DNA of 45,305 nt from a virus. This document shows, piece after piece, positions 4,962-28,185 of this stretch (its first letter is position 1; each line of letters opens with the position of its first letter). The position numbers were made by a program, and so were the translations under genes. The DNA lies in the IMG/VR virus record IMGVR_UViG_3300046660_000388, positions 1 to 45,305 of that record; one strand, 5' to 3'. The notes under the pieces were generated by a model. It was given only the letters and a program-made list of their open reading frames with translations. It was not told the DNA's origin and searched no databases.

Positions 4962-5198
4962 ATGCAGAAAATTGCACGTTCACTTGCAACGAACGATGAC
5001 GGCCACGTTGTCGGCGAAGATCACCACCGAGCCAAGCTGACCGATCACGAGATCTGGCTGATCCACGAACTGCGGGCCGAGGGCATGCGTCGGCGGGAGA
5101 TCGCAGAAAAGTTCGAGGTCAGCGTGTACACGATCATCGAGATCCTGAGCGGCCGGCGCCGCGCTCACTCGGCGACAGGCCAGAAGCGGCGTACATAG
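4962..5198 (+). CDS. Small HTH DNA-binding protein (78 aa)
   Basis: Residues 27-66 (LTDHEIWLIHELRAEGMRRR, then EIAEKFEVSVYTIIEILSGRR) form a clear helix-turn-helix resembling sigma-70 region 4 or resolvase-type HTH. Its start codon directly follows two GTAGTGAG octamers with no other Shine-Dalgarno sequence, so the octamer may be both leader and binding site. The stop codon TAG is part of the first GTACATA late motif. Lying between replication and virion genes, it is a candidate late-gene activator or packaging-region protein; both roles are inference. Confidence 0.65.
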   Translation: MQKIARSLATNDDGHVVGEDHHRAKLTDHEIWLIHELRAEGMRRREIAEKFEVSVYTIIEILSGRRRAHSATGQKRRT

Positions 5199-5206
5199 GT
5201 CGGCCG
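5186..5206 (+). promoter_or_regulatory. Late motif copy L1 (GTACATA), before terminase small subunit
   Basis: GCGTACATAGGTCGGCC, with the G of GTACATA at 5191, exactly 36 nt before the terminase small-subunit ATG. It overlaps the stop of the HTH gene. No -35-like hexamer lies upstream. The leader ends TTGCGGAC-ATG, similar to copies L3 and L5. First of five copies (see 7324, 13148, 19306, 28164). Confidence 0.6.
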
Positions 5207-5226
5207 ACTGATGCCATGTTGCGGAC

Positions 5227-5802
5227 ATGTACCGCAACTGGGTTCAGCCCTTCCTCGAGCACCTCGCACGCACCGGCAACGTCGCCGGCAGCGCGCGGCA
5301 CGCTGGCATCGCTAGCGGCATCGCCTACACCTTGCGCAAGAGCGACGCCGACTTCGCGGCGGCCTGGGATCTGGCGATCGAGGATCACACCGACCAGTGC
5401 GAGGAGGAGCTCACACGGCGCGCCTTCGGCTACGAGGAGCCGGTCGTGTACCAAGGGCAGCTGACGCCGGTCTGGGCACGCGACGCCGGCGGCAGGGTCG
5501 TGACCGAGGCCTACAGCGTCATGGGCGCCGATGGTCAGGAGGAGATCGCGCACCGGCCCGTGCAGGCTCGCTACGCCGACGGTTCGCTGCAGTGGCTCAC
5601 TGTGACGAAGTTCAGCGACACGCTGCTCCTGGCCCGCGTGAAGGCCTACCGCAAGCGCTACAGCACCGACCGCACCGAGGTCGTGTCGTCCACGGCGATC
5701 GACTCGATGACCGACGCCGAGCTGATCGCCGAGTTCAACACGCTGCAGCGCAAGCTCGCAGCGATCAAGCCTGCCGATGACGACCTCGCTCAGTACGCGT
5801 GA
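5227..5802 (+). CDS. Terminase small subunit
   Basis: A 191-aa protein that starts with a helical HTH-like region (MYRNWVQPFLEHLARTGNVA, then GSARHAGIASGIAYTLRKSD) typical of small terminases, followed by FGYEEPVVYQGQ and LLLARVKAYRKRYS. It overlaps the large terminase by 26 nt. The protein recognises phage DNA for packaging and forms a ring that regulates the large subunit. Assigned by order, length and the HTH-plus-ARVKAYRKRY pattern; no pac or cos site could be identified. Confidence 0.82.
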   Translation: MYRNWVQPFLEHLARTGNVAGSARHAGIASGIAYTLRKSDADFAAAWDLAIEDHTDQCEEELTRRAFGYEEPVVYQGQLTPVWARDAGGRVVTEAYSVMGADGQEEIAHRPVQARYADGSLQWLTVTKFSDTLLLARVKAYRKRYSTDRTEVVSSTAIDSMTDAELIAEFNTLQRKLAAIKPADDDLAQYA

Positions 5803-7387
5803 GCGGGCCATCATGCTGGACGCGATCGCGAAGGGCCGCGCAGTGCTGGCGCGCCAGCCCATCTGGTCGCCGCTGCCCGGCCCGCAGCAGATGGCGTTCG
5901 ACTCGGACGCCGACATCATCGGCTTCGGGGGCGCCGCCGGCGGCGGCAAGTCCGACCTGGCGATCGGCAAGGCGCTGCGCAAGGCGTTCGAGGTGCTCAT
6001 CATGCGCCGCGAGGGCACGCAGCTGCAGGGCATCCTGCAGCGCATGCAGACGCTGCTCGGCTCGCGTGACGGGTTCAGCAGCCAGCCGCCCATCTGGCGC
6101 GACGCCGGCCCGCGCAAGACGCTGATCGAGTTCGGCTCCTGCCCGAACCTGGGCGACGAGCAGCGCCAACAGGGCCGACCGCATGACCTGCTCGTGTTCG
6201 ACGAGGCCGCGAACTTCCTCGAGGCGCAAGTCCGCTTCCTGCTCGGATGGAACCGCTCGACCCGCGAGGGCGTGCACAGCCAGGCGCTGCTCACGTTCAA
6301 CCCGCCGACCAGCGCCGAGGGCCGCTGGATCGTCGACTTCTTCGGGCCGTGGCTCGACAAGAAGCACCCGCGCTACCCGGCCATGCCCGGCCAGATCCTG
6401 CACTGCGTCATGGTGCCGGGCGAGAATGGCACGAGCAAAGACGTCTGGGTCGACCGCACCGACCCGTGCGTCGTGATCGGCGGCGAGCTCGTGTACGACT
6501 TCGACCCGAAGGACTACAAGGTCGAGGACATCATCACGGCGCAGTCGCGCACGTTCATCCCCTCGCGGATCTCGGACAACCCGCACTTGGCCGGCTCCGG
6601 CTACCTGCGCCAGCTGCAGGCGATGCCCGAGCCGCTGCGATCGCAGATGCTGTACGGCGACTTCCAGGCCGGCATGCAGGATGACCCGTGGCAGGTCGTG
6701 CCGACCGCCTGGGTCGAGGCGGCGATGGCGCGTTGGAAGGATCGGGCACCGAAGGGCGAGATGATGGGGCAGGGCGTGGACGTCGCCCGCGGCGGCAAGG
6801 ACAACACGACGATTGCCAACCGGCACGCGAACCCCGATGGGTCGAAGGGCTGGTGGATCGACAAGCTGCGCATCTTCCCGGGCAGCGAGACGCCCGATGG
6901 GCCGATGGTGGCGGGCCTGGTGATCGCGGCGCGGCGCGACGAGGCGCCGATCCACATCGACGTCATCGGGGTGGGCGCCTCGCCGTACGACACGCTCAAC
7001 TCGATGCAGCTGCAGGTGCTGGGCGTGAACGTCAGCGAGAAGGCGCTCGGCACCGACAAGTCCGGCCGGCTGCGGTTCTTCAACCAACGTTCCGAGCTCT
7101 GGTGGCGCATGCGTGAGGCGCTCGACCCAGCCAACGACACGGGCCTGGCGCTGCCGCCCGACAAGCAGCTGCTCGTCGAGCTCTGCACGCCCACGTGGCA
7201 GCTCTCCGGGCTGACGATCAAGGTCGCGAGCCGCGAGGAGATCTACGAGAAGATCGGCCGATCGGTCGACCGCGCGGTCGCCGTCATCCTCGCGATGATC
7301 GAGACGCCGAAGCGTCCGAAGCCGGGCGGCGTACATAAACCGGGTCAGCGCCGTGAGCATGACCCGTATGCAGGTCTCAACGCTTGA
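5777..7387 (+). CDS. Terminase large subunit (ATPase-nuclease)
   Basis: 536 aa. Walker A is GGAAGGGKS (51-59), Walker B LLVFDEAA (D142, E143), and NPPTSAEGRW near 175-184 is a typical coupling region. The C-terminal RNase H-like nuclease begins at GVDVARGGKD (D335) with IDVIGVGASPYD carrying another acidic residue. The enzyme cuts concatemers and drives DNA into the prohead through the portal. The end of the gene carries late motif L2. The length is usual for podovirus terminases of this type. Confidence 0.93.
   Translation: MTTSLSTRERAIMLDAIAKGRAVLARQPIWSPLPGPQQMAFDSDADIIGFGGAAGGGKSDLAIGKALRKAFEVLIMRREGTQLQGILQRMQTLLGSRDGFSSQPPIWRDAGPRKTLIEFGSCPNLGDEQRQQGRPHDLLVFDEAANFLEAQVRFLLGWNRSTREGVHSQALLTFNPPTSAEGRWIVDFFGPWLDKKHPRYPAMPGQILHCVMVPGENGTSKDVWVDRTDPCVVIGGELVYDFDPKDYKVEDIITAQSRTFIPSRISDNPHLAGSGYLRQLQAMPEPLRSQMLYGDFQAGMQDDPWQVVPTAWVEAAMARWKDRAPKGEMMGQGVDVARGGKDNTTIANRHANPDGSKGWWIDKLRIFPGSETPDGPMVAGLVIAARRDEAPIHIDVIGVGASPYDTLNSMQLQVLGVNVSEKALGTDKSGRLRFFNQRSELWWRMREALDPANDTGLALPPDKQLLVELCTPTWQLSGLTIKVASREEIYEKIGRSVDRAVAVILAMIETPKRPKPGGVHKPGQRREHDPYAGLNA
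7324..7346 (+). promoter_or_regulatory. Late motif copy L2 (GTACATA), inside the 3' end of terminase
   Basis: GGCGTACATAAACCGGG with the key G at 7331, translated as G-V-H-K-P-G in the terminase tail. It precedes the next gene by 22 nt (GTG 7353), 28 nt (ATG 7359) or 37 nt (ATG 7368). Retention of the motif inside a coding region argues for selection at the DNA level. Confidence 0.55.
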
Positions 7388-7832
7388 CTTCACCACGCTG
7401 ACGGCACAACCGTCGCCCGAGCAATTCGCGGCGATCGAGGCCTACATGCGCGAGATCGAGCAGAAGCGCGGCCACGTGCTCGACCTCGCGACGACCGACC
7501 ATTTCGCCGACAACGATCGCCTGTACGGGCGCAGCGTGCTGATCCCCGCCGACACCGTGCTGCTGGGCGGCACACACCAGTGCGGCAGTCTGTGCATCGC
7601 CGTCGGCGACATCACGGTGCTGACCGAGGCCGGCCCGCGCCGGCTGACCGGCGTCAGCGTCGTGCCCACGCTCGCCGGGCTCCAGCGCATCGGCGTCACG
7701 CACGCCGACACGTTCTGGATCTCGGTGCACGTCAACCCGACCAGCGGCAACGACGTCGCCGCGATCGAGAACGCGCTGTGCGTCGAGGCCGAGCGCCTCA
7801 TGACGCGCCGCGCACCGGAGGCGCTCCAATGA
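7353..7832 (+). CDS. Cupin-like phage protein between terminase and portal
   Basis: A 159-aa protein (GTG 7353; ATG 7359 or 7368 are in frame and equally possible) overlapping the terminase end. Its middle (RSVLIPADTVLLGGTHQ, then CGSLCIAVGDITVLTEAG and ITHADTFWISVHVNP-like strands) has the alternating strand and turn pattern of a cupin/jelly-roll; the family is common at this position in podoviruses and of unknown function. It may be a minor virion or assembly protein. Its stop overlaps the next ATG as ATGA. Confidence 0.7.
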   Translation: MSMTRMQVSTLDFTTLTAQPSPEQFAAIEAYMREIEQKRGHVLDLATTDHFADNDRLYGRSVLIPADTVLLGGTHQCGSLCIAVGDITVLTEAGPRRLTGVSVVPTLAGLQRIGVTHADTFWISVHVNPTSGNDVAAIENALCVEAERLMTRRAPEALQ

Positions 7833-8158
7833 GCTTCGGACTCAGCGCCGTCGCCGTCGCCGAGATCGGCGCGGCCATCGCCGCCGCCGGCACCGCGTAC
7901 AGCGCGTACAGCTCCAACCAGGCGGGCATGCTGCAGAACCGCGCGATGCAGCAGGCCCAGGCCGCGGCGAAGAAGAATTCGATGCTCGCCGACGAGGCGA
8001 ACAACCAGGCGAACGCGAAGTCGCCCGACACCAGCGCCATCCTGGCGGCCAACCTCGCCGCCGGCAAGCAGGGCGCCGCCGGCACCATGCTGACCGGCCC
8101 GGGCGGCATCGACCCCACGCAGCTCACGCTCGGCAAGTCCAGCCTCCTGGGGGGCTGA
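7829..8158 (+). CDS. Small putative virion protein (109 aa)
   Basis: ATG at 7829 is preceded by CCGGAGGCG and coupled to the previous gene. The N-terminus is hydrophobic and Ala/Gly-rich (VAVAEIGAAIAAAGTAYSAY) followed by a Gln/Ala-rich helix (NQAGMLQNRAMQQAQAAAKK), like the start of internal virion proteins such as the one at 19368. It overlaps the portal start as TGATG. Probably a minor head or ejection protein; no catalytic motif. Confidence 0.65.
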   Translation: MSFGLSAVAVAEIGAAIAAAGTAYSAYSSNQAGMLQNRAMQQAQAAAKKNSMLADEANNQANAKSPDTSAILAANLAAGKQGAAGTMLTGPGGIDPTQLTLGKSSLLGG

Positions 8159-9867
8159 TGCGCGAGTACAAGGCCACCGACCGTGCCGACCTGCTTCGCC
8201 GATGGGGCGAGCTGAAGCTCGAGCGCGCATCGTGGATGCCGCACTGGCAAGAGCTGTCGACGTTCCTGCTGCCCCGTTCGGGGCGCTACTTCATCCAAGA
8301 TCGCAACCGCGGCGCCCGGCGGCACAACAACATCTACGACAACACCGGCACCCGCGCGCTGCGCGTGCTGGCCGCCGGGATGATGTCGGGCATGACGTCG
8401 CCGGCGCGGCCGTGGTTTCGTCTGTCGACGCCCGACAAGGAGCTGAACAAGCATCAGCCCGTCAAGGTCTGGCTCGACGACGTCACGCAGCTGATGCTGT
8501 CGGTCTTCAACAAGTCGAACGTCTACCGCGGGTTGCACCAGACGTACGAGGAGCTCGGCACGTTCGGCACCTCGGCGAAGATCGTGATGCCCGACTTCAA
8601 GAACGTCGTGCACCACGCCTCGCTGACCGCCGGCGAGTATGCGATCGGCACCGACTGGCGCGGCAACGTCGACACGATCGCCCGCGAGTTCGAGAAGCCC
8701 GTGTCGCAGGTCGTGCGCGAGTTCGGCTACAAGAACTGCAGCACCGCCGTGCAGAACCTCTGGGACAACGGCACCCTCGGCGCGTGGGTGCCGATCATCC
8801 ACATCATCGAGCCGCGCGCCGATCGCGAGCGCGATTTCAAGTCGAAGCTCGCCACGGACATGGCCTGGCGCTCGTGCTACTTCGAGACGGGCGCTCAGGA
8901 CAATCAGTACCTGCTCGACTCCGGGTACAACGAGTTCCCGGCACTCTGCTCGCGATGGGCCGTCGCCGGCGGCGACATCTACGGCAACAGCCCGGGGATG
9001 GAAGCGCTCGGCGACGTGAAGCAGCTCCAGCAGGAGCAGTTGCGCAAGGCCCAGGCGATCGACTACCAGACGAAGCCGCCCCTGCAAGTCCCCACCTCGA
9101 TGAAGAATTCCGAGGTCGAGATGCTGCCGGGTGGCGTCAGCTACGGGGACGGGGACGGCATCCGCACGGCGTTCGAGGTCAAGCTCGACCTCGGCGCGAT
9201 GCTCAACGACATCCAGGACGTGCGCGAGCGCATCAAGGCGGCGTTCTACACGCAGCTGTTCCTCATGCTGACCGAGCTCGACGCCGGCAAGATGACGGCG
9301 ACCGAGGTCGCCGAGCGGCACGAAGAGAAGATGCTCATGCTCGGCCCGACGGTCGAGCGCCTGCACAACGAGGAACTCAGCCCGCTCGTGCAGTCGACGT
9401 TCAATCGCATGCTGCGCGTCGGCATGCTGCCGCCGCCGCCGCAGGAGCTGCACGGCGTGACGCTGCAGGTCGAGTTCACCTCGATGCTGGCGCAGGCCCA
9501 GCGCGCGATCGGCACGAACTCGATCGACCGGTTCGTCGGCAACCTCGGCCAGATCGCCGCGTTCGCGCCAGGCGTCCTCGACAAGTTCGACGCCGACGAC
9601 TGGGCCGACGAGTACAGCGACATGCTGGGCGTGCCGCCGTCGCTGATCGTTGCGAACGACAAGGTCGCGCTCATCCGCCAGGGCCGCGCACAGCAGGCCG
9701 CCGAGGCGCAGAAGGCTGCGCAACAGAACCAGGCGGCCGACACCGTCCAGAAGCTGGCGAACGCGCCCACCGGTGGAGGCAACGCGCTGAGCGCCCTCGT
9801 CGCCGGCGGCGGGCTCGTGAAGACCGGCCCCCAAGACCCGACCCGCGCTTTCAGCGGGTACACCTGA
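8158..9867 (+). CDS. Portal (head-to-tail connecting) protein
   Basis: 569 aa of the podovirus head-tail connector family (Pfam Head-tail_con). Hallmarks: the N-terminal LLRRWGELKLERASWMPHWQ, the LPRSGRYF segment, ALRVLAAGMMSGMTSPARPW at about residues 71-90, and the long C-terminal helix region ending in Gln/Ala-rich KVALIRQGRAQQAAEAQKAA. Twelve copies normally form the ring at one head vertex through which DNA enters and leaves. It lies between packaging genes and a pair of receptor-binding genes, an unusual neighbour on the 3' side. Confidence 0.93.
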   Translation: MREYKATDRADLLRRWGELKLERASWMPHWQELSTFLLPRSGRYFIQDRNRGARRHNNIYDNTGTRALRVLAAGMMSGMTSPARPWFRLSTPDKELNKHQPVKVWLDDVTQLMLSVFNKSNVYRGLHQTYEELGTFGTSAKIVMPDFKNVVHHASLTAGEYAIGTDWRGNVDTIAREFEKPVSQVVREFGYKNCSTAVQNLWDNGTLGAWVPIIHIIEPRADRERDFKSKLATDMAWRSCYFETGAQDNQYLLDSGYNEFPALCSRWAVAGGDIYGNSPGMEALGDVKQLQQEQLRKAQAIDYQTKPPLQVPTSMKNSEVEMLPGGVSYGDGDGIRTAFEVKLDLGAMLNDIQDVRERIKAAFYTQLFLMLTELDAGKMTATEVAERHEEKMLMLGPTVERLHNEELSPLVQSTFNRMLRVGMLPPPPQELHGVTLQVEFTSMLAQAQRAIGTNSIDRFVGNLGQIAAFAPGVLDKFDADDWADEYSDMLGVPPSLIVANDKVALIRQGRAQQAAEAQKAAQQNQAADTVQKLANAPTGGGNALSALVAGGGLVKTGPQDPTRAFSGYT

Positions 9868-9877
9868 AAGGCACACC

Positions 9878-11176
9878 ATGAGCGGCACCAGCCGATACGG
9901 CAATCTGCTTCTCGATTCGAACGGCAATTTCGTGGGGTACGTCGACCAGTTCGGCAATGAGCGAGGGCTTCCTTCGCAGGCCAATCGCAAACTGAGTCGG
10001 CCAGCGTTCAAGCTCAGCGGCATGTTCAATGCACCCTCGGCAGGCACCCTCGGCAACACATTGTCCGGCGCGGCGCTCATCCCGTTCCCGTTCAAGGCCG
10101 TCTACGCGCATGCGATGAACATCGCGAACGTGCAAATCGTGAACTGCCTGCTGTCGTGCGGCGTCTCGACCAGCATCACAGATTGCGTCACGCCCACGTC
10201 CGGACTCAGTCCTCTGCTGTTCAGTGCTGCTGCGCCCGTGACGCTTCCGGTTGCCACGGACTCGACGACGAACAACTGGATCTGGTCGACGATGAGCTCC
10301 GATCGGCTGCAGATGAACTCGGTGACGCGCGCGGATGGCGGTGCTGGCTATCCATTCCATTGGCGAATGTACCAGCCCGGCGCCGGCAATACTGTCGGCG
10401 TCCGACACGCAGATTATGCGACGGCGGCGATTCCCGACCTCACTCAAAATCGGCTGCGCACATTCTTCCGCGCCGGCGATTGCGTTACGACGCCCGGAAA
10501 TATGACGGCCGCCAACGCGACGGAATGGCAAGCAGCACCGCCGGTGTTTTTCGAGTTCGAGACGGTGTCGGGGCAGTCGGTTGTTCTGTCAATTGGCGAC
10601 TCGACAATGCAGGGTCAAGACGGATTGGTGCAGATCAACGGGCCGATCCGCCGAGCCAGTGAAAACCTGATCGGCAATGGATTTCCGATCTCGTTCTTGA
10701 ACGGCTCGCACTCCAGCATGACGGCGCTCGCGTACCTGACCAACGGTCTCGCGCTGCTCGATACGTACCTGCCCACTGTCGCTGCTTTTTGCCCCTTCTC
10801 CCCGAACGGCCAAGCCGTGGTCGGTGCGAGCTACACGCAGGCCGACGTCGACCTGGCGGCCAAGTACATGATGACGTTCCTGCAGGAGTGCCGCCTCAAG
10901 CGCGTCATTCCCATCCTGCGAACGCCCAACCCGGTCAACAGCATCACCGCCGGCCAGGAAGCTTTCCGGCGCCAGATCGCCGTGGATGTGCGCGCCGCGT
11001 GCGCATCGGGCCTGGCGGCGCTGATCGACAGTGACGCGCTCTACACCGACTACAGCACCAGCACGGGGGGCTTCAAGTCCGTCTACGTCTCGGCTTCCGC
11101 GGTGCACTCCAACGAATTCGGGCAGAGCCAAGAGGCGTTGCTCTGGGCCGCGGTGCTTGCGAACCTGGTGCGCTGA
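9878..11176 (+). CDS. SGNH/GDSL hydrolase-like receptor-binding protein
   Basis: 432 aa. Residues 7-28 (YGNLLLDSNGNFVGYVDQF) match the next protein's N-terminus in pattern and spacing, suggesting a common virion anchor. The C-terminal half holds an SGNH-type fold: block I LSIGDSTMQG with nucleophile S242, and block V VHSNEFG with H410. The usual Asp three residues before the His is Ser407, so catalysis may use a dyad. Such domains in tailspikes remove acyl groups from surface glycans. The gene has GAAAGG before its ATG and visibly lower GC than its neighbours, fitting horizontal acquisition. Substrate unknown. Confidence 0.72.
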   Translation: MSGTSRYGNLLLDSNGNFVGYVDQFGNERGLPSQANRKLSRPAFKLSGMFNAPSAGTLGNTLSGAALIPFPFKAVYAHAMNIANVQIVNCLLSCGVSTSITDCVTPTSGLSPLLFSAAAPVTLPVATDSTTNNWIWSTMSSDRLQMNSVTRADGGAGYPFHWRMYQPGAGNTVGVRHADYATAAIPDLTQNRLRTFFRAGDCVTTPGNMTAANATEWQAAPPVFFEFETVSGQSVVLSIGDSTMQGQDGLVQINGPIRRASENLIGNGFPISFLNGSHSSMTALAYLTNGLALLDTYLPTVAAFCPFSPNGQAVVGASYTQADVDLAAKYMMTFLQECRLKRVIPILRTPNPVNSITAGQEAFRRQIAVDVRAACASGLAALIDSDALYTDYSTSTGGFKSVYVSASAVHSNEFGQSQEALLWAAVLANLVR

Positions 11177-11179
11177 ACC

Positions 11180-13141: not shown

Positions 13142-13147
13142 CCGCGC

Positions 13148-13169
13148 GACCGACGTACATAAGGCCGGC
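13148..13169 (+). promoter_or_regulatory. Late motif copy L3 (GTACATA), before the head-protein block
   Basis: GACGTACATAAGGCCGGC in the 49-nt gap after the tailspike; key G at 13155, exactly 36 nt before ATG 13191. The leader ends ATTGCGCTC-ATG with no Shine-Dalgarno sequence. It would start the Bbp19-like, scaffold and capsid unit. Confidence 0.62.
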
Positions 13170-13190
13170 AACGCCTCGCACATTGCGCTC

Positions 13191-13478
13191 ATGGACACCA
13201 ACGACCTGCACCCCGAAGCCAGCCAGCGACGCGACGCGTCGGTGCTGGCTCGCCAGGTCGAGACCAACGACACGAAGTGGCTGATGTCCAGCAAGCAGGG
13301 GCGCCGTATCGTGCGCCGCTGGCTTGCGTCGGCCGGCATCTACCAGACGAGCTTCACCGGCAATAGCGAGACGTTTTTCCGCGAAGGCAAGCGCGCCCTC
13401 GGCCTCGAGATCCTGGCCGACGTCACGAAGCACGCGCCCGAGGACTACATCGCGATGCTCACCGAAGGAACGAAATGA
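13191..13478 (+). CDS. Bbp19-like phage protein (95 aa)
   Basis: The stretch RRWLASAGIYQTSFTGNSET followed by FFREGKRALGLEILADV is the signature of the small Bbp19 family first named in Bordetella phage BPP-1 and regularly found beside podovirus scaffold genes. Function is not established; a head-assembly accessory role is inferred from position. The start ATG lies 36 nt after the late motif, and the stop overlaps the scaffold ATG as ATGA. Confidence 0.78.
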   Translation: MDTNDLHPEASQRRDASVLARQVETNDTKWLMSSKQGRRIVRRWLASAGIYQTSFTGNSETFFREGKRALGLEILADVTKHAPEDYIAMLTEGTK

Positions 13479-14167
13479 CCACGGAAACCATGCTGGGCGG
13501 GGTAGCAGAACCCACCGTCGCCACGCCCGCAGCAGGCGCAGAGACCACGACCGCGACGACCGTCGCGACCGCGGCCCCTGCGGGTTCGGAGACTGGCACG
13601 GCGCAAGCCGATGCTTCGGTTCTCGACGCAGAAGGCAAGCCGGTTGTCGCCGCGAAGGCCGACGAGGGCGCGCCCGAGAAGTACGCGGACTTCACGGCAC
13701 CGGAGGGCGTCAAGGCGCCCGCCGGCGAGCTGATGACGGAGTTCGCGACCCTCGCGAAGGAACTGGGCATGAGCCAGGCGAAAGCGCAGGACGCGTTCGC
13801 CCTGGTCGCGAAGCTGGCCGAGAAGGGTTCCGACCCCGCTCGGCAGGCCGCAGCGACCGAGGCGGCGCGCGTGGCGAAGATGGAGACCTACGAGGCGGTC
13901 ACCAAGGCGGATCCCGAGTTCGGCGGCGAGAAGCTGGCCGAGAACCTCGCGATCGCCAAGGCCGCCATGGTCGCCACCACGACGCCCGAGCTGCGCAAGC
14001 TCCTGAACGAAACCGGTCTCGGAAGCCACGCCGAAGTGATTCGGCACTTCCTGAAGATCGCCCCGGCGTTCGCTGAGAGCAAGCACGTTCCGGGGGGCAT
14101 GCGCCCCGCCGGCGCGGGCAAGTCCGCAGCGGAGGTTCTGTACCCCACGGCCGCTGCTACTGCCTAA
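13475..14167 (+). CDS. Putative scaffolding protein
   Basis: 230 aa, very rich in Ala, Thr, Glu and Lys. An unstructured N-terminus (TVATPAAGAETTTATTVATA) is followed by long helices (FATLAKELGMSQAKAQDAFA, ARVAKMETYEAVTKADPEFG). Composition, length and position immediately before the major capsid gene are typical of scaffolds, which guide prohead assembly and then leave. No protease motif was seen. Assignment rests on context rather than on a diagnostic motif. Confidence 0.75.
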   Translation: MTTETMLGGVAEPTVATPAAGAETTTATTVATAAPAGSETGTAQADASVLDAEGKPVVAAKADEGAPEKYADFTAPEGVKAPAGELMTEFATLAKELGMSQAKAQDAFALVAKLAEKGSDPARQAAATEAARVAKMETYEAVTKADPEFGGEKLAENLAIAKAAMVATTTPELRKLLNETGLGSHAEVIRHFLKIAPAFAESKHVPGGMRPAGAGKSAAEVLYPTAAATA

Positions 14168-14189
14168 GGCTTTAGCACACGATAAAGAA
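14168..14189. promoter_or_regulatory. Operator-like site before the capsid gene (O4)
   Basis: GCTTTAGCACACGATAAAGA matches the operator family at CTTTAGCA and GAT-AAG but is weaker than the others; arms CTTTA/TAAAG are inverted. It sits in the 33-nt gap between the scaffold stop and the capsid ATG, overlapping the capsid Shine-Dalgarno AGAAAG. It might silence capsid expression in a lysogen, or be a chance match. Confidence 0.35.
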
Positions 14190-15852: not shown

Positions 15853-16278
15853 ATGTCCCTGACCCAAAAGCGCGAACCCGTCGAATACACCGTCCTCGAG
15901 AGATCCCTCGTCGGGAACAAGATCTACGAGGTCGGCGAGACCGCCATGTACGACGGCCTGCCGTCCGAGAATCTCGGCCCCACGTGCGACGAGGGCCGCG
16001 CCCGCGCCATCGAGTACGTCGAGTCGAACAAGGCGCGCCTGGCGAAGATGAAGGAGCAGTACGGCGACTCCGCCACGCGGGGAGACCCGGCGGCGTTCAG
16101 CAAGCTGTTCCTCGAGGAGCTCGCCAAGGCGAACGCGCAGCACGCCGAGCAGATGGCGGCGCTGCAGGCGGGCCTCGCCGATGCGGTCGGCCAGGCCGTC
16201 GCTGCCGCGCTCGCCGCTGCCGCGCCGGCCAAGGGCAAGGCGGCGAAGGCCGCTGCCGAATCCGACGCGATCGCCTAA
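15853..16278 (+). CDS. Hypothetical head-tail region protein (141 aa)
   Basis: The N-terminal 50 residues (PVEYTVLERSLVGNKIYEVG, ETAMYDGLPSENLGPTCDEG) read as a small beta domain also seen in other phage proteins, where it resembles head-fibre or stabilising modules. The middle is helical, and the tail is Ala/Lys-rich (VAAALAAAAPAKGKAAKAAA), which suggests DNA or scaffold contacts. No function is known. It follows the terminator and is 3 nt from the tail tube A gene, so it probably belongs to the tail unit. Confidence 0.65.
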   Translation: MSLTQKREPVEYTVLERSLVGNKIYEVGETAMYDGLPSENLGPTCDEGRARAIEYVESNKARLAKMKEQYGDSATRGDPAAFSKLFLEELAKANAQHAEQMAALQAGLADAVGQAVAAALAAAAPAKGKAAKAAAESDAIA

Positions 16279-16986: not shown

Positions 16987-19313
16987 GGGGCTTCTCGCGG
17001 TCGTTCACCGGCGGCGAGCTGACCTCGGAATTCTTCGGGCAGATCACCGACGCGAAGTATCAGACGGGCCTCGCCCTCTGCAGGAACTTCCGCGTCCTGC
17101 CGCATGGGCCAGTGCAGAACCGCGCCGGCTTCGAGTTCGTCCTCGAGGTGAAGAACTCGGCCAAGGCGACGCGCCTCATGCCGTTCACCTACTCGACGAC
17201 GCAGACCATGGCCGTCGAAGTCGGTGAGCACTACTTTCGGTTCCACACGATGGATCCGGCCACCGGCTACGGCTCGACGCTGCTCTCGGGCGGCGTCCCC
17301 TACGAGGTCGCGAATACGTTCGTCGCAGCCGACCTGTTCGGCATCAAGTACGTGCAGAGCGCCGACGTCTTCACGGCGGTGCATCCGAACTATGCGCCCG
17401 CGGAACTTCGCCGCGGCGGTGCGCTGGCATGGACGTTCACGCCCATCTCGTTCGCCGCGACCATCGCGCCCCCCACGGCGCTCCTGGCTACGGCCACACT
17501 GGGCGCGACGCCGGGAACGCCGATCATCCATCGATACGCCGTCACCTCCGTGGCGAGCAACAACATCGATGAGTCGCTGATCTCGACCGAGGCGTCTGCC
17601 TCCGGCCCGCAAGCGACGATCAACGCCATCACGAAGGCGAACCCGGGCATCATCACGACGACCGCGGCGCACGGCCTGCTCGTGAACGATCCGGTCGCGA
17701 TCTCCGGCGTCGTCGGCATGACGGGGATCAACCTGGCCGGGCTGACCGTCGCGTCGATTCCGACCACGACGACGCTCACCGTCGCTCTTGCTGGCGTGCC
17801 GGTAGACACGAGCGGATTCGCTGCGTACGTGTCGGGCGGCGTCATCACGATGACCGCCGGTGTCAAGAACAACCTGTTCGACAGCGGGGCGAGCAACAAG
17901 ATCACGTGGACGCTGGCCGCTGGCGCGCTCCGGTACAACGTCTACAAGTACAGCAACGGCCTCTGGGGCTTCCTGGGCCAGGCGTCCGGGAACTCGTTCG
18001 TCGATGACAACATCACGCCGGACATCAGCAGGACGCCGCCGGAGGCGAGCAATCCCTTCGCGACGTCCGGCAACTACCCTGGCGCCGTGACGTACTTCGA
18101 TCAGCGCCGCGTCTTCGCCGGCACGATCAACCAGCCACAGAACATGTGGCTGACGCGCGCCGGCACCGAGTCGAACTTGTCGTACTCGATCCCGACGCGG
18201 GACGCCGACTCGATCGCGTTCCGCGTCGTGGCGCGCGAGGCGAACACGGTTCGCCACCTGGTGCCGCTCGCCAACCTCGTCGCGCTCACGAGCTCCGCGG
18301 AGTGGCGTGTCACCAGCCTGAACACCGACTCGCTGACGCCGACCAGCATCAGCGTGAAACCGCAGTCCTACGTGGGTGCGAACGACGCGCAGCCGGTCGT
18401 CGTGAACAACAACGTCGTCTACGCGTCGGCCCGTGGCGGCCACGCGCGCGAGATGGCATACCAGTACACGGCCGGCGGCTACGTCACCGGCGACCTGAGC
18501 CTGCGGGCGCCGCACCTGTTCGACCAGCTGACCATCGTCGACATGGCGTTCAGCAAGGCGCCGTACCCGATCATCTGGATGGTGAGCTCGAACGGCAAGC
18601 TGCTGAGCCTGACCTATGTCCCCGAGCAGCAGATCGGCGCCTGGGCACAGCACGACACCGACGGCGTGTTCGAGTCGTGCTGCGTGGTCGCCGAGGGCGA
18701 CGAGGACGTGCTGTACGTCATCGTGCGGCGCACGATCGGCGGCACACAGAAGCGCTACGTCGAGCGGATGCGCCCGCGCGTCTTCGCGACGCCGGCCGAC
18801 TCGTTCTTCGTCGACTGCGGCGGCACGTTCATCGCGTCGGGCGCGCCGGTCTCAACCATCACCGGCGTCAACTGGCTGGAAGGCAAGACGATCAGCATCC
18901 TCGCCGACGGCGCCGTACATCGGCAGCTCGTTGTCGTGGGGGGCCGCTTTACCCTCGACAACCCTGCGACGAAGATCCAATTCGGCCTGCCGATCACCGC
19001 CGATCTGCAGACGTTGCCCCTCGCCAACCAACTCGAGGGTGCCGGTCAGGGGCGGCGGAAGAACGTGAACAAGGTCTTCCTGCGGGTCAAGGATTCGAGC
19101 GGGATCTTCACCGGCCCGGCGTTCGATGCGTTGACCGAGGCGAAGATCCGCACGACCGAACCCTACGGCTCGCCGCCGCGCCTGCAGACGCGCGAGATCG
19201 AGGTCGTCAACCGGGCGGCCTGGGACGACAACGCGCAGGTCTGCGTGCGCCAGAGCGACCCGCTGCCACTGACGGTCATCGACATGACCCTCGACTACGC
19301 CATGGGCGGCTGA
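16983..19313 (+). CDS. Tail tubular protein B-like (tail nozzle)
   Basis: 776 aa. The first residues FSRSFTGGELTSEFFGQITD and RNFRVLPHGPVQNRAGFEFV are the hallmark of T7 gp12-type nozzle proteins (receptor-anchoring tail tip). The rest is beta-rich with repeated Ig-like stretches, e.g. ALTSSAEWRV and PVVVNNNVVYASARGGHARE. Six copies normally form the tail tip to which spikes attach. The gene contains a partial, probably fortuitous GTACAT at 18915. Late motif L4 directly follows its stop. Confidence 0.88.
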   Translation: MRGFSRSFTGGELTSEFFGQITDAKYQTGLALCRNFRVLPHGPVQNRAGFEFVLEVKNSAKATRLMPFTYSTTQTMAVEVGEHYFRFHTMDPATGYGSTLLSGGVPYEVANTFVAADLFGIKYVQSADVFTAVHPNYAPAELRRGGALAWTFTPISFAATIAPPTALLATATLGATPGTPIIHRYAVTSVASNNIDESLISTEASASGPQATINAITKANPGIITTTAAHGLLVNDPVAISGVVGMTGINLAGLTVASIPTTTTLTVALAGVPVDTSGFAAYVSGGVITMTAGVKNNLFDSGASNKITWTLAAGALRYNVYKYSNGLWGFLGQASGNSFVDDNITPDISRTPPEASNPFATSGNYPGAVTYFDQRRVFAGTINQPQNMWLTRAGTESNLSYSIPTRDADSIAFRVVAREANTVRHLVPLANLVALTSSAEWRVTSLNTDSLTPTSISVKPQSYVGANDAQPVVVNNNVVYASARGGHAREMAYQYTAGGYVTGDLSLRAPHLFDQLTIVDMAFSKAPYPIIWMVSSNGKLLSLTYVPEQQIGAWAQHDTDGVFESCCVVAEGDEDVLYVIVRRTIGGTQKRYVERMRPRVFATPADSFFVDCGGTFIASGAPVSTITGVNWLEGKTISILADGAVHRQLVVVGGRFTLDNPATKIQFGLPITADLQTLPLANQLEGAGQGRRKNVNKVFLRVKDSSGIFTGPAFDALTEAKIRTTEPYGSPPRLQTREIEVVNRAAWDDNAQVCVRQSDPLPLTVIDMTLDYAMGG

Positions 19314-19332
19314 CGTACATAGGGCCGGCGCC
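19306..19332 (+). promoter_or_regulatory. Late motif copy L4 (GTACATA), before ejection-protein block
   Basis: GACGTACATAGGGCCGGCGCC starting at the nozzle gene's stop; key G at 19315, 53 nt before ATG 19368. An out-of-frame ATG at 39 nt is preceded by TCGCATC, resembling the leader ends of L1, L3 and L5. Here a good Shine-Dalgarno (GAGGAGG) was added before the true start. Confidence 0.58.
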
Positions 19333-19367
19333 GACGCATACCTTCCTCGCATCATGAGGAGGTATGC

Positions 19368-19958
19368 ATGCCGCTGACGGCTGACGCGGGGTACGGACAG
19401 TTCGGCATGGCGATGCAGGTCGGCGGCGCGCTGTCGTCCGCGATCGGGGCCTACTCGTCGATCCGCGGCCAGAAGAGCCAGCTTCGCATGCAGGCGGTGC
19501 TCGACGCGATCAACGCCCAGACCGCCGAGCGCTCGGCGCAGTCCTCGTTGGCCGCCGGCCAGCACGAAGAGCAGGCCAGCATGCTGCGCACCGCGGCGCT
19601 GCGGAGCTCGCAGGAGGCGCATTTCGCCTCGAGCGGCGTCGCACTCAACGAAGGCAGTGCGGCGCGGGTGCTGACCAGCACCGACGTGATGGGCGCGATC
19701 GACGCGAACACGATCCATGCGAACGCAGTGCGCCAGGCCTGGGGCTATCGCACGCAGGCGGTGAACGCCTCGAACGCCGGTCTCGCCGCGGCGACGTCGG
19801 CCGACTCGCTGAGCGCCGCAGGCGCCGGCGCGACATCGCTCCTGGGCAGCGCCGGCAGCGTGGCGCAGAACTGGTACATGCTGAACAAGTCGGGAGCCTT
19901 CGGCCCGGCCGCCGCGACCGCGGACGGCTTCACGATCAATCCGCAGGCTGGCCCCTGA
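19368..19958 (+). CDS. Internal virion (ejection) protein, gp14-like
   Basis: 196 aa, Ala/Gln/Ser-rich. A hydrophobic Gly-rich N-terminus (FGMAMQVGGALSSAIGAYSS) precedes long helices (QTAERSAQSSLAAGQHEEQA), matching the smallest of the three T7-type internal core proteins that line the channel for DNA entry. Start chosen at ATG 19368 after GAGGAGG. It overlaps the transglycosylase gene as TGATG. The three ejection genes 19368-28164 are contiguous and surely act together. Confidence 0.8.
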   Translation: MPLTADAGYGQFGMAMQVGGALSSAIGAYSSIRGQKSQLRMQAVLDAINAQTAERSAQSSLAAGQHEEQASMLRTAALRSSQEAHFASSGVALNEGSAARVLTSTDVMGAIDANTIHANAVRQAWGYRTQAVNASNAGLAAATSADSLSAAGAGATSLLGSAGSVAQNWYMLNKSGAFGPAAATADGFTINPQAGP

Positions 19959-22186: not shown

Positions 22187-25100
22187 GCGATCCGTTCGAC
22201 GACGCGGCTGCGTCGTACCTCCAAGGCAGCGCCGCGGAGATCCGCAACAGCGTCGCCCAGGCCCTGCCGGTCAACCCGGACGCCGAGGCGGCGACGCGCC
22301 GGTACGCGGCCGCCGCGCAGGTGCCGCTCGAGACGGCTCGCGCGCTGCCCGATCAGGTCAAGGTGCAGGCGCAGCTGTCGCAGTTCGACGCCAACCTGCT
22401 GCAGCGCCAGTTCCCGTCGACCGCGCAGCTGCTGAAGAATCCCGACCTCGCACGGATCGCGCACGACGACATCCCCGGCACGACGGCCGTCGAGACTGCG
22501 GTGCAGGCGCCGGCGGCTCCGACCGTGCCCGGCATGCACCCGGCACCCGGCAAACCGTTCTCGCTCGGCACCGTGGCGAACTACCTCGCCAGCACCGACG
22601 GCGATCACGGCCTGCTCGCCGACGCTGGCAGCGCCGTCGGCTCGCTGTTCAAGGGCCTGGGCGGATCGTTCCAGGAGCTGATCAACGCGGCCGGCCTCGT
22701 GACCTCGGCGCCGGCCGTCCTGTACGACAAGGCCGCCGGCGGCACTGCAGCGCAGGACTGGTGGTTTCGCCACATGGTCGACCCCGGCCTCGAGAAGCGC
22801 CAGGCGTTCGACCTGGGCGCCGACGCGTCGCCGGCCGACAAGAGCATGCACGCCGCCGGCAAGCTGCTCGGGATGGTCTCGCAGGTCGTGCTCACGGGCG
22901 GCGAGGCGGCCGCGCCGGCCGCCGCGGGCGAGGGGCTGGCGAGCGCTGTCGGCGGCGCGGCCGCGCACGGCGTCAAGGCGATGGCGGCGCCCGCGCTCAC
23001 CGACGCGGTGAACACGGGGCGCGAGGTCTACCAGGCCACGGGCGATGGGAACAAGGCGCTCGTGGCCGCGGCGACGGCCTACTCGACGACCAGCGCCATG
23101 GGCATCGTGCCCCTGTCGCTCGAGGGTGGCCTGCTCGCGCGCCTCGCGAGCGGCGCGGCGTCGGGCGCCGTGACGGGCGAGGCGCAGCGCCATCTCATGA
23201 ACGCCGCCATGCCCGACAGCATGCAGACGCCGTTCTCGTGGGAGAACGCGTTCGTGTCGGCCGCCATCGGCGCGACCCTCGGCGGTGTCATGGGGCCGCG
23301 GGCACGCGTGACGGGCGCCGACGCGGCGCTGCGCGACACGTACACCGAGACGTTCCGGGCCGCCGAGGGCGAGGCACAGGCACAGCAGCTGGCCGACATC
23401 GCCAAGGCGGCCACCGCCAGCAAGCTGCGGGAGCGTGACCCCGAGGCGTTCAAGCAGTTCGTCCGCGACGCGGCCGACGGCGGCAACCTGCAGAGCGTGC
23501 AGATTGAGGGCGTGAAGCTGGCCGAGATGCTGCAGAAGGCGGGCGTCACGCCGGACGAGCTGAAGCAGACCATGCCCGACGTAGCCCGCCAGATGGACGC
23601 CGCACTCGGCGAGAACGCGCCGACGAACTCGCTGGTCAGCGTGCCGATCGAGGACTTCGCCACCCACATCGCAGGCAGCAAGTTCGAGGATTCTTTCCTG
23701 CAGGAGGCGCGCACCGCGGCCGACTCGGCGACCCTCGGCGAGACCGAGGCGTTCAAGAAGACGCAGCAGGAAGATCTGCAGGCGCGCGCCGACCAGGTGG
23801 CGGCTGCGCACGTCGAAGATCAGGCGTACACCGACAGCGTCGCGAAGATGAACGCCCAGGTCGACGCGAACCTCGCCGGCCTGAAGATGCGCCCCGACCA
23901 GCTGGCCGCGAACAGCGCGCTGCTGCGCGAGTTCTACAAGACGCAGGCCGACCGCACCGGCGTGCTGCCGCACGAGTTCGCCGCGCAATACCCGGTGACG
24001 GGGACGAACAAGGCGCTCGCCGGCGACGTGCTCGAGCAGAAGGCCCGCGGCACGTACAGCCCGAGCACGCACACGATCGCGCTGCTGAAGGACGCCAACC
24101 TCTCGACGTTCCAGCACGAGCTCGGCCACTTCTTCCTCGACACGCTGAGCCACGCCGCGGCGCTGCCCGACGCGCCGGCCGGCATGCAGGCTGACATGGC
24201 GGCGCTGCTGAAGTGGGCCGGCGTGCCCGACCTCGACTCGTGGCACGAGATGTCGATCGACCAGCAGCGCGACCTGCACGAGAAGTTCGCGACGGGTTGG
24301 GAGACCTACCTCATGAAGGGGCAGGCGCCGTCGCTCGAACTGCGCGGTCTGTTCCAGCGCTTCCGTGCTTGGATGATCTCGGTCTACAAGAGCTTGAAGG
24401 GCGCTCCCGGCGACTTCACGCCCGAGGTGCGCGGCGTGTTCGACCGGATGATCGCCAGCGAGGACGCGATCCATCAGGCCGAGCTCGCGCGCAAGTACAT
24501 GCCGCTGTTCGACTCGCCGGAGAAGTCCGGCATGTCGGCCGAGGAGTGGGCCGCCTACCAGGCGCAGGGCAAGGATGCCACTGAGCAGGCGATCGAGGCG
24601 TTGATCGGCAAGACCATGAAGGACATGGCGAAGACCGATCGCCTGCGCACGGCGTCGCTCAAGGCTGTGCAGCGCGATGCCGCGGAGAAGCGCAAGGCGA
24701 TCCAGCTCGAGGCCCGCGCCGAGGTGCTGAGCGCGCCCGTGTACCGCGCCTGGGCGTTCCTGACCGGCAAGGACTCGGCGCAGCTGCCCGACGAGATCAA
24801 TGCCGAGCACCAGCAGGCGCTGCGCGACTGGAAGGAAAAGCGCGAGGAGCACGAGGCCGAGCAGAAGGGCGCGATCAAGGCGGCCGCCTGGGAGGCCGCG
24901 CCGGCGTCCAAGGGCACGTACAAGAACCCCGCGCTCGCGAAGGGCCAGTGGCTGTCGAAGAACCGCGCCCGTATCGACCTCGACGTCAAGCGCGCGATGC
25001 TCGACTACGATGCCGAGCACCCGAAGCCCGAAGCCCCGCCCAAGCCTGACACGGCGTCGAAAGACCCGACCACCGGCGCCGGCAAGCTCGACGTCGAGGC

Positions 25101-28100
25101 GCTGCGCGAGATCGTCGGCAAGGACGGCGCGAAGCCACTCGAGGCGCTGCGCATGACGCGTGCCAAGGGCGGCATGGCGCCGGGCGAGGTCGCCGACATG
25201 TTCGGCTTCCCGGACGTCGAGACGATGGTCAAGGCGCTGACCAACGCCGAGCCGCCGCGCGGCGCAGTGGAAGGCCTCACCGATCAGCGCATGCTCGAGC
25301 GGCACGGCGAACTATCCAACCCCGACGCGATCGCGCGGACGGCCGACGAGCTCGTGCAGAACGAGGTGCGCTCGACGTTCGTCGCGACCGAGCTCCGCGC
25401 ATTGAAGAAGGCCACCGGCAAGCCGCGCGAGATGGTCGCCGCGGCGAAGGAAGTCGCCCAGAACACGATCGACACGAAGCGGATCCGCGACATCAGCGAG
25501 CACCAGTTCCTGGCGGCCGAGACGCGCTCGGCGACCCAGGCCGAGAAGGCGATGATGAAGGGCGACACCGAAGGCGCCGCAGTCGCGAAGCGTGACCAGC
25601 TGCTGAACATGGAGCTCGCCCGGGCGGCGCGCGACGGCAAGGACTTCGTCGTGAAGTCGCTCGAGTACCTGGCAAAGTTCGACAAGGACAGCGTCCGCGA
25701 ACGCATCGACCTCGACTACCGCGACCAGATCGACGCGCTGCTCGCGCGGGCTGACCTGCGCAAGAGCGTCTCGAACACGGCGCTCGACAAGCGCGCGTCG
25801 CTCGAGGCGTTCGTCGAGAAGATGGCCGCGGCCGGCTACAAGCCGGACATCGCCGAGGCGCTGCTGAACGAGGCGGCGACCTGGCACTACAAGGACATGC
25901 CGCTCGCGGCGTTCCGGGGACTCGTGGACTCGATCAAGTCGATCGAGCACCTCGGCGTCCTGAAGGAACGACTCCGCGACGGCCAGGAGACCCGTGCAAT
26001 CGGTCAGCTCGCGACCGAGATGCGCGACACCGCGGCGCAGCTGCCGCAGCGCCTGGGTGAGTCGAACCGCGGCCTGACGCGCATCGAGGCGAAGTGGCTC
26101 AAGGCGAAGGCCTTCGGCCGCAGCGCTCAGGCGTCGCTGCTGAAGATGGAACAGATGTTCGACTGGCTCGACGCTCGCAACCCGAATGGCGTCATGAACC
26201 GCGTCGTGTTCCGTCGGATGGCCGAGGCGCAAGGTCGAGAGAACGACCTGCTCGCCGCGACCAAGGCACGGATCGACGAGCTCGTCGAGAAGAACCTCGA
26301 CGCGATCGCGAAGACGAAGAAGATTTTCACGGCGCCCGGCCTGATCGACGGCGCCACCGGTCTGCCGCAGAAGTTCACGACGAAGGAGATGCTGATGCTT
26401 GCCGGCAACTTCGGCAACGACAGCAACCTCGGCAAGCTCGCCAAGGGCGAGAACTGGGATCCGCAGCTCGTGCAGGACTTCCTGTACGCGAACATGACGC
26501 CGGCGCACTGGGATTTTGTCGAAGGCATGGGCGCGGCGCTCGAGTCGCTCTGGCCGGAGAAGCTCGCGATGGATCGTCGCCTGGGCAACACCTCGCCCGA
26601 GAAGATTGCGCCGCGGCCGTTCACGACGCCCGACGGCAAGACGCGCAGCGGCTGGTACTGGCCCATGATGTACGACCCGGCCCGCAGCCAGGACGTCGCT
26701 GAGCGCGGAGCGCGGCAGGGCGACGCGCTGTTCGAGAACATCTACAGCAAGGCGAACACCGACACGGGCCGGATGAACACCCGGAACGAGAACTACGCGC
26801 GGCCGCTGCTGCTCGACCTCGACGCGCTGCCGCGCATGATCAAGGACGAGATCCACGACGTCGCCTGGCGCGAGGCCGTCATCGACGCCGATCGCTTCAC
26901 GTCGCACCCGGTCGTGCGCAAGGCCGTCATCGAGTCGCTGAGCCAGGAGCATTACGACCAGATCCGACCCTGGCTGCAGTCGATCGCCAACGACGGGAAG
27001 CTCGACAACGAGGGCAACCGCGGCTGGAAGTGGCTGAACAAGATCGCCAGCGAAGCGCGCACGCGGGCGACGATCGTCGGTCTGGGCCTGCGCCTGACGA
27101 CCGCCGGCGTGCACGGCCTGTCGGCCGGCATGGAGTCCATCGCGGAGCTCGGCCCGAAGTGGTTCGGCAAAGGCCTCTGGGACTTCAGCAACCCGACCCA
27201 GTGGGCGGCGAACAAGGACGCGATTTTCGAGAAGTCGGCCGAGATGCGCAACCGGATGAACGAGGTCGACCGCGACATCCGCGAGCACCTGCGCACGATC
27301 GACACGGCGCTCATGGATCCGACCAGCAGCGCGATGGCCCGCGGCGCCGACCTGATGCGCGCTCACGCGTACACCATGATCGGCGGCCTCGACATGCTGA
27401 CGGCGCTACCGACGTGGCAGGGCGCCTACCTGAAGGCGCTGCACCCGGTCGACAAGGGCGGCCTGGGGTACGGCGAGCAGGATGCCGTCTACTTCGCCGA
27501 CAAGACCGTGCGCAACGCCCACGGCGGCACGGGCGTCAAGGATATGGCGGCGATCCAACGCGGCGCCGAGTTCCAAAAGCTGTTCACGATGTTCTACACC
27601 TTCTGGAATCACAACGTGAACCGGCTGATCGACACCGGCAAGCTGATCACCAGCCCGGAGCATCGGGCCGCGATGAAGACCGCGAACCACTGGTCGGACT
27701 CGCAGATCGCGGCGACGGTCATCATGCGCACGCTCGTCTACACCCTCGGCGTCCAGACGATGCACGCGATCTTCCACCCGCCGAAGGACGGCGAGGCCGA
27801 CTCGTGGGCGCTTTGGGCGGCCAAGGAATTCGGCGGCGCGGCGTTCGGCGGCATTCCGATCGCGCGTGACCTGTATTCGCACTACGTCACCGGCCGCGAC
27901 TACGCCGTGACGCCGGCCGCCGGCCTGGTCGACATGATCGGCAAGACCGGCCAGGACGCGGCGAACGCGCTCACTGGCAAGACGGTCAGCGACAAGTGGG
28001 TCAAGCACACGGTGTCGACTGCCGGCGCGGTGTTCAACCTGCCTCTCGGTCAGCCGTCCAATGTCGCCCAGTTCCTCTGGGACATCCATGAGGGGCGGGC

Positions 28101-28164
28101 CGACCCAACCAGCGCGAGCGACTGGTACAACGGCGTCATGCATGGCGACGTGAAGCACCACTAG
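22183..28164 (+). CDS. Giant internal ejection protein (1993 aa) with HExxH metallopeptidase motif
   Basis: The largest gene. The product is mostly helical, with an Ala/Gly-rich membrane-prone stretch near residues 240-330. At 645-649 it has HELGH within LSTFQHELGHFFLDTLS, with an acidic/His-rich HEKFATGWETYL further on, a zincin-type metallopeptidase signature like those in large polyvalent phage proteins. The C-terminal part (GLRLTTAGVHGLSAGMESIA; MFYTFWNHNVNRLID) resembles the core channel protein. It likely spans the envelope during DNA ejection, and the peptidase may act on host or virion proteins. Length is well above T7 gp16. Activity is inferred. Confidence 0.82.
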   Translation: MSDPFDDAAASYLQGSAAEIRNSVAQALPVNPDAEAATRRYAAAAQVPLETARALPDQVKVQAQLSQFDANLLQRQFPSTAQLLKNPDLARIAHDDIPGTTAVETAVQAPAAPTVPGMHPAPGKPFSLGTVANYLASTDGDHGLLADAGSAVGSLFKGLGGSFQELINAAGLVTSAPAVLYDKAAGGTAAQDWWFRHMVDPGLEKRQAFDLGADASPADKSMHAAGKLLGMVSQVVLTGGEAAAPAAAGEGLASAVGGAAAHGVKAMAAPALTDAVNTGREVYQATGDGNKALVAAATAYSTTSAMGIVPLSLEGGLLARLASGAASGAVTGEAQRHLMNAAMPDSMQTPFSWENAFVSAAIGATLGGVMGPRARVTGADAALRDTYTETFRAAEGEAQAQQLADIAKAATASKLRERDPEAFKQFVRDAADGGNLQSVQIEGVKLAEMLQKAGVTPDELKQTMPDVARQMDAALGENAPTNSLVSVPIEDFATHIAGSKFEDSFLQEARTAADSATLGETEAFKKTQQEDLQARADQVAAAHVEDQAYTDSVAKMNAQVDANLAGLKMRPDQLAANSALLREFYKTQADRTGVLPHEFAAQYPVTGTNKALAGDVLEQKARGTYSPSTHTIALLKDANLSTFQHELGHFFLDTLSHAAALPDAPAGMQADMAALLKWAGVPDLDSWHEMSIDQQRDLHEKFATGWETYLMKGQAPSLELRGLFQRFRAWMISVYKSLKGAPGDFTPEVRGVFDRMIASEDAIHQAELARKYMPLFDSPEKSGMSAEEWAAYQAQGKDATEQAIEALIGKTMKDMAKTDRLRTASLKAVQRDAAEKRKAIQLEARAEVLSAPVYRAWAFLTGKDSAQLPDEINAEHQQALRDWKEKREEHEAEQKGAIKAAAWEAAPASKGTYKNPALAKGQWLSKNRARIDLDVKRAMLDYDAEHPKPEAPPKPDTASKDPTTGAGKLDVEALREIVGKDGAKPLEALRMTRAKGGMAPGEVADMFGFPDVETMVKALTNAEPPRGAVEGLTDQRMLERHGELSNPDAIARTADELVQNEVRSTFVATELRALKKATGKPREMVAAAKEVAQNTIDTKRIRDISEHQFLAAETRSATQAEKAMMKGDTEGAAVAKRDQLLNMELARAARDGKDFVVKSLEYLAKFDKDSVRERIDLDYRDQIDALLARADLRKSVSNTALDKRASLEAFVEKMAAAGYKPDIAEALLNEAATWHYKDMPLAAFRGLVDSIKSIEHLGVLKERLRDGQETRAIGQLATEMRDTAAQLPQRLGESNRGLTRIEAKWLKAKAFGRSAQASLLKMEQMFDWLDARNPNGVMNRVVFRRMAEAQGRENDLLAATKARIDELVEKNLDAIAKTKKIFTAPGLIDGATGLPQKFTTKEMLMLAGNFGNDSNLGKLAKGENWDPQLVQDFLYANMTPAHWDFVEGMGAALESLWPEKLAMDRRLGNTSPEKIAPRPFTTPDGKTRSGWYWPMMYDPARSQDVAERGARQGDALFENIYSKANTDTGRMNTRNENYARPLLLDLDALPRMIKDEIHDVAWREAVIDADRFTSHPVVRKAVIESLSQEHYDQIRPWLQSIANDGKLDNEGNRGWKWLNKIASEARTRATIVGLGLRLTTAGVHGLSAGMESIAELGPKWFGKGLWDFSNPTQWAANKDAIFEKSAEMRNRMNEVDRDIREHLRTIDTALMDPTSSAMARGADLMRAHAYTMIGGLDMLTALPTWQGAYLKALHPVDKGGLGYGEQDAVYFADKTVRNAHGGTGVKDMAAIQRGAEFQKLFTMFYTFWNHNVNRLIDTGKLITSPEHRAAMKTANHWSDSQIAATVIMRTLVYTLGVQTMHAIFHPPKDGEADSWALWAAKEFGGAAFGGIPIARDLYSHYVTGRDYAVTPAAGLVDMIGKTGQDAANALTGKTVSDKWVKHTVSTAGAVFNLPLGQPSNVAQFLWDIHEGRADPTSASDWYNGVMHGDVKHH

Positions 28165-28185
28165 GCGGCGTACATAAGCCCGGTC
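28164..28185 (+). promoter_or_regulatory. Late motif copy L5 (GTACATA), before tailspike and lysis genes
   Basis: GGCGTACATAAGCCCGG with the key G at 28170, exactly 36 nt before ATG 28206; the leader ends CTGCGGCC-ATG without a Shine-Dalgarno sequence. It starts right after the giant gene's stop. Confidence 0.62.

Follow-up and report, generated by a model that had tools for sequence, protein, structure and literature searches.

Putative late promoters with an activator-read -35 box in BPP-1-like podoviruses

Five sites in the podovirus record IMGVR_UViG_3300046660_000388 are, with a probability of about 0.82, late promoters in which a short box bound by the phage protein HTH78 replaces the -35 element. 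The box would act together with a host sigma70-type -10 to produce leaderless late mRNAs. The window, meaning the whole stretch of 45,305 bases that was analysed, has such a site before each of five late gene blocks. Sequence comparison provides the bipartite motif, its spacing and placement, the start-codon distance, the missing Shine-Dalgarno sequence and the covariation of box and recognition helix.

In the proposed mechanism, HTH78 would be a delayed-early product, its gene closing the rightward early operon behind the repressor/Cro-like and primase genes. It would bind a 10 bp phage-specific box at about -38 to -29, which would stand in for the sigma70 -35 element, and so give host RNA polymerase its -35 recognition. 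A host sigma70-type -10 (xAxxxT) would follow at a fixed distance, with transcription beginning about 7 nt past it, at the start codon or a few bases away. The terminase, adhesin, head, ejection and tailspike blocks would be turned on together. We infer the binding of the box by HTH78, the activation, the contact with polymerase, the timing and the start sites.

The five sites of the window

The window, 45.3 kb long, comes from a podovirus. An identical 27-bp tandem array stands at either end (1-391 and 45137-45305, with SNTG-type repeats encoded on the minus strand), and the contig is therefore probably circular and cut within the tandem-array gene. Its portal is 62% identical to that of Bordetella phage BPP-1 and 45% identical to that of epsilon15. 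Between about 5.2 and 31 kb the plus strand carries the virion genes; genes for DNA polymerase, SSB, methylase, helicase and integrase are on the minus strand. In bacterial genome contigs, most of the terminase's relatives belong to Burkholderiales (Achromobacter, Cupriavidus, Paraburkholderia and MAGs).

The original prediction described five plus-strand copies of GTACATARRnCCGG. This holds for the core GTACATA, of which the 45,305 bases contain exactly five copies, at 5191, 7331, 13155, 19315 and 28170; all are on the plus strand and the minus strand has none. Only three of these (13155, 19315 and 28170) match the full 14-mer exactly, with one mismatch at 7331 and two at 5191. All five GTACATA are preceded by G[AG]C and the conserved unit is RCGTACATAR. 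The described overlaps with coding sequence are also found. The copy at 7331 is within the terminase large-subunit gene (5777-7387), the copy at 5191 overlaps the TAG (5196-5198) of the ORF at 4962-5198, and the copy at 19315 directly follows a TGA (19311-19313). The gene after the second site had been called cupin-like; it matches tail-adhesin/short-tail-fibre families and not a cupin family. The promoter parts, all on the plus strand, are as follows.

4962..5198, +, HTH78, 78 aa, proposed late activator; stop codon inside promoter 1
5189..5198, +, promoter 1 box GCGTACATAG, putative -35 position
5215..5220, +, promoter 1 putative -10 CATGTT; predicted +1 5227 = A of the TerS ATG; predicted leaderless
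7329..7338, +, promoter 2 box GCGTACATAA, within the terminase large subunit gene
7355..7360, +, promoter 2 putative -10 GAGCAT; predicted +1 7367; predicted 1-nt leader
7368, +, ATG after promoter 2, in frame with the tail-adhesin-like ORF
13153..13162, +, promoter 3 box ACGTACATAA
13179..13184, +, promoter 3 putative -10 CACATT; predicted +1 13191 = A of the ATG of the Bbp19-like gene that heads the head block; predicted leaderless
19313..19322, +, promoter 4 box ACGTACATAG, overlapping the tail gene stop
19339..19344, +, promoter 4 putative -10 TACCTT; predicted +1 19351
19368, +, ATG of promoter 4; predicted 17-nt leader with strong Shine-Dalgarno GAGGAGG
28168..28177, +, promoter 5 box GCGTACATAA
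28194..28199, +, promoter 5 putative -10 GAGACT; predicted +1 28206 = A of the tailspike ATG; predicted leaderless

Three exact 14-mers are present, against none in 100 dinucleotide shuffles. The observed/expected ratio of GTACATA is 38 (5 against 0.13), the highest of all 7-mers outside the tandem array. In Markov-3 whole-genome simulations, some 7-mer reaches ratios of up to 52, so frequency in a single genome is not by itself decisive. The decisive support for a real motif is comparative and positional: the sites of the nearest relative, described below, and an xAxxxT at the identical offset in 5/5 window sites (chance about 1e-8). These -10 elements are poor apart from their A and T. Additional copies at random places would have counted against the motif; a composite scan of the window gives the five sites and no other above a 5/7 match.

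The motif had been taken as a -10-type element, with a -35 sought upstream of it. This reading is rejected, the motif itself occupying the putative -35 position and the real -10 lying 24 bases downstream of its first G. Transcription had been expected to start within 15 nt downstream; the predicted +1 falls at the start codon, some 36 bases past the first G, and mapping 5' ends by the 15-nt limit would have wrongly dismissed what is predicted to be a true promoter. An RNA-level signal was also considered and rejected, because the box is upstream of both the -10 and the start.

Promoter architecture and box changes among relatives

This architecture recurs at the corresponding gene junctions across the BPP-1-like podoviruses, the laboratory phage BPP-1 among them, with each lineage having its own box. 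When 175 sites from 50 non-redundant loci are aligned by nothing but the box, it reads G-GTG-C-R-C-R-T-A, in which C at position 5 and T at position 7 are nearly fixed. A second block at offset 26-31 has T at its first base (55%), A at its second (86%) and T at its sixth (87%). At offset 26, xAxxxT is present in 145/175 sites, compared with 0-16 sites at each of the remaining offsets between 10 and 45. Automatic discovery mis-registered four loci (BPP-1, L071, L084 and L095), all of which remain in the 175-site table, so this -10 count is if anything low. xAxxxT is the sigma70 -10 pattern, which puts the box at the putative -35 position. In the box-registered sites, TTGACA at spacings of 16-18 bp is matched no more often than at random. 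Both the fixed-spacing -10 and the missing -35 consensus of a sigma70 promoter with an activator-replaced -35 are present.

With the last base of the -10 set at -7, the predicted +1 is at offset 38. The start codon is found at offset 36-41 in 62/74 testable starts, these being from two head genes of box-led operons. Shine-Dalgarno matches of at least 4 are present at 6/62 of those starts (random expectation 26%) as against 37/44 for the capsid gene of the same phages. Since the predicted +1 is at or near the start codon, the majority of these late transcripts are expected to be leaderless and to have no Shine-Dalgarno.

The nearest IMG/VR relative, the 44-kb contig L007, contains exactly five RCGTACATAR, all forward and none reverse, at the same five junctions as the window, and shares the arrangement of promoter 5 (at 26308). 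In the fragment L010, both sites within its coverage are present. Retention of the motif in close relatives is not general, however. L008, with portal and terminase 80-83% identical, has no GTACATA, and carries TTCACATA[AG]G at the same junctions instead. This replacement of one word by another is the strongest evidence for a putative cognate factor. Other lineages have different words again at these junctions (GTGCGCGTG, GTGTACGT, GTGCACGTA, GTGTACAAG, GTATGCATA, GTTGCCTTA and GTTCCAATA), and when the box changes it does so at every site, over distances of up to about 13 kb. Ahead of the Bbp19-like gene, the promoters of L050 and L054 are nearly identical: GTGCGCGT in the first corresponds to GTGTACGT in the second, and most of the rest is kept. 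A simple discovery test, of 60 draws only, gave its smallest p value in no more than 29/79 HTH78-bearing loci. The boxes, their spacing and their behaviour among relatives argue well for the earlier proposal of late promoters using a phage-encoded factor.

HTH78 and the reading of the box

Homologs of HTH78 are found in 98/132 loci, encoded upstream of TerL (the distance is negative in one, a rotated record); that of BPP-1 is bbp27. Relatives truly without HTH78, in which the region is covered and which include epsilon15, have no significant shared box. Particular recognition helices pair with particular boxes: [PA]KRTVRDIC with GTGCGCGT, SKSSVAKIC with GTGTACGT, SKGA[IV]AKIC with GTGCCCGT, and S[VF]YT[IV] with GCGTACATA.

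In disjoint nearest pairs with the same box (n=10), the HTH78 recognition-helix distance has a mean of 0.15 and a maximum of 0.4. In the few with a changed box (n=6, one change being common to two of them) the mean is 0.63 and the minimum 0.6. The two classes are separated by helix distance without overlap (p=6e-4), while TerL distance does not differ (p=0.29). The AUC for close pairs is 1.0 for the helix, 0.76 for portal, 0.62 for MCP, 0.49 for TerL and 0.31 for TerS. HTH78 helices 1-2 reach 0.97, close to the value of the recognition helix, which is not sharply singled out within the protein. When all pairs are taken, box and recognition helix correlate only weakly in the Mantel test (0.20), less than the box does with the rest of HTH78 (0.39) or with the Bbp19-like protein (0.34). 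It is the close pairs, therefore, that carry the covariation case for HTH78 as the putative reader. For this test the BPP-1 sites were set by hand, L071, L084 and L095 were left out, the L010 box was entered by hand because it has two sites only, and the L007 box, the first base of which varies between sites, was set to GCGTACATA.

The AF2 model of HTH78, of modest confidence (mean pLDDT 69), has a three-helix HTH core with low-confidence arms. Foldseek with this model returned no significant match, and Foldseek and PDB searches together gave only generic HTH proteins. By profile searches HTH78 is close to the HTHs of resolvases and of sigma-E region 4, with no firm place in any one family. 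Likeness to PHROG 'late transcriptional activator' profiles is weak (phrog_836, E=7e-4; phrog_532, E=5e-3), as are the match to Mor (E=0.074) and that to the 'positive control sigma-like factor' profile (best 4e-4, in 7/52 members). HTH78 is probably the factor acting on the putative late promoters.

Instead of HTH78, a host factor or a different phage protein, for example the Bbp19-like one, could read the box, with HTH78 covarying through linkage. Bbp19-like and portal distances do correlate with box distance over all pairs, but only the HTH78 recognition helix separates the close pairs perfectly. The Bbp19-like protein has no HTH match and is itself made from a box promoter. A host factor would not readily account for boxes that differ between phages whose terminases are about 90-94% identical, and physical linkage does not explain distant sites (11-13 kb), which leaves this explanation quite improbable. 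That the promoters belong to a single-subunit phage RNA polymerase of the T7 kind is less probable still. The shape of ...ACATAGGG resembles ...CACTATAGGG, and GACGTACATAGGG and TTCACATAGG are T7-like by eye, but the boxes of other lineages are G+C-rich, for example GTGCGCGTGA, without an AT-rich melting region, and the sigma70-type -10 at +26 contradicts such a reading. No match to an RNA polymerase or sigma gene was found among the scanned ORFs, and the single-subunit polymerase was rejected.

Operators or stoperators of an immunity repressor, blocking transcription in the lysogen as in Cluster A mycobacteriophages, would share several properties with the boxes. Stoperators are asymmetric, of one orientation and scattered over the genome, with a lineage-specific consensus that coevolves with a DNA-binding protein (PMC6550527), and the annotated repressor sites of epsilon15 are at comparable junctions. 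However, the strict 26-base spacing to the -10 and the spacing to the start codon are promoter properties. There are only 4-5 sites, none at the cI/cro region or in the early operon, and every window site has a fixed-spacing -10. The likely cI operator of the window is another, palindromic word, CTTGACTTTAGCA..GGTCAAG, and cI operators were rejected as the identity of the boxes. The HTH78 gene follows the primase, away from the immunity locus, and these promoters, which lack a -35 once the box is discounted, need help, not repression. A repressor function of the boxes is accordingly very unlikely, and activation by HTH78 remains the preferred reading. The likely cI-type operators of the window, CTTGACTTTAGCA..GGTCAAG and TTGCTAAAGT, are repeated at 1279-1305, 1949-1986 and 3508-3530, surrounding the repressor region and also within the primase gene.

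Known systems and phage BPP-1

Small phage-encoded activators that serve several late operons with host polymerase include P2 Ogr, Mu C and PBSX Xpf. The P2 and Mu activator sites are further upstream and are dyads. These proteins are of different families from HTH78, the scores of which are too weak for membership. In T4 middle promoters, as proposed here, the host sigma70 -10 is kept and a phage activator box replaces the -35 (PMC6755090). The MotA box is centred near -30 and serves middle genes, whereas the boxes here are centred near -34 and serve late genes; the leaderless mRNAs predicted here are a further difference. MotA has two domains, with a double-wing DNA-binding domain, and needs AsiA, in contrast to the 78-aa HTH of HTH78. 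With this box centre, and with no MotA match for HTH78 in Pfam, PHROGs or PDB profile searches, the system falls outside the T4 MotA/AsiA class. Cluster A stoperators number up to 30, are mostly not associated with promoters and stop elongation (PMC6550527), unlike the 4-5 sites here, each of which would be the -35 of a promoter.

Epsilon15 (NC_004775) has neither HTH78 nor the box. Its annotated repressor sites (12-27, 2931-2947 and 19895-19911) are, like the boxes, at the terminase, post-terminase and tailspike junctions, but are palindromic (ATTACC-N5-GGTAAT). This suggests that the late blocks in the epsilon15 branch also have their own promoters, under another control.

The activator-replaced -35 promoter is known; what is new is the lineage-specific specificity and the predicted leaderless late mRNAs. 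The original prediction knew of no such motif, and no earlier description of the element was found in the open-access literature searched (the BPP-1 genome paper being outside its scope). There is a somewhat better than even chance that these sites represent a widespread, undescribed class of phage late promoters, in which a monomeric 8-kDa HTH is an exchangeable -35-reading module with leaderless late mRNAs, at least a dozen diverged protein/box specificities and a readable recognition code. Such a natural set of matched proteins and boxes would offer orthogonal small activators and a direct test of an HTH replacing -35 recognition.

A late-gene switch is thereby proposed for the BPP-1-like podoviruses, including the laboratory phage of diversity-generating retroelement work, with exact start sites and leaderless late mRNAs as its predictions. 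In BPP-1 (L087), GGTGCCCGTGCC occurs exactly four times on the late strand and not at all on the other. The boxes are followed by TAGAGT, TACTGT, AAAACT and TAGCCT at +26, and by ATG at +36 to +39. The fourth predicted late promoter heads bbp9 and then the downstream mtd/DGR genes. An intrinsic terminator lies between this fourth box and bbp9 (L087 rc 36309-36369). Because its 5' arm is in the promoter spacer, only transcripts from upstream can form it, and it can halt upstream read-through while sparing new transcripts toward bbp9 and mtd.

Two BPP-1 annotations would be corrected. The annotated start of bbp26, the terminase small subunit, is upstream of the promoter box (L087 rc 16176-16241), and a better candidate start is the ATG at rc 16239, on the predicted +1. 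The gene bbp27 (L087 record 26337-26573), annotated as 'endonuclease', is the HTH78 homolog. A 24-bp tandem array of GGTGGCCGTG is present at L087 rc 8942-9260, in variable region 2 of bbp36; its word is one base from the BPP-1 box, which is probably a coincidence.
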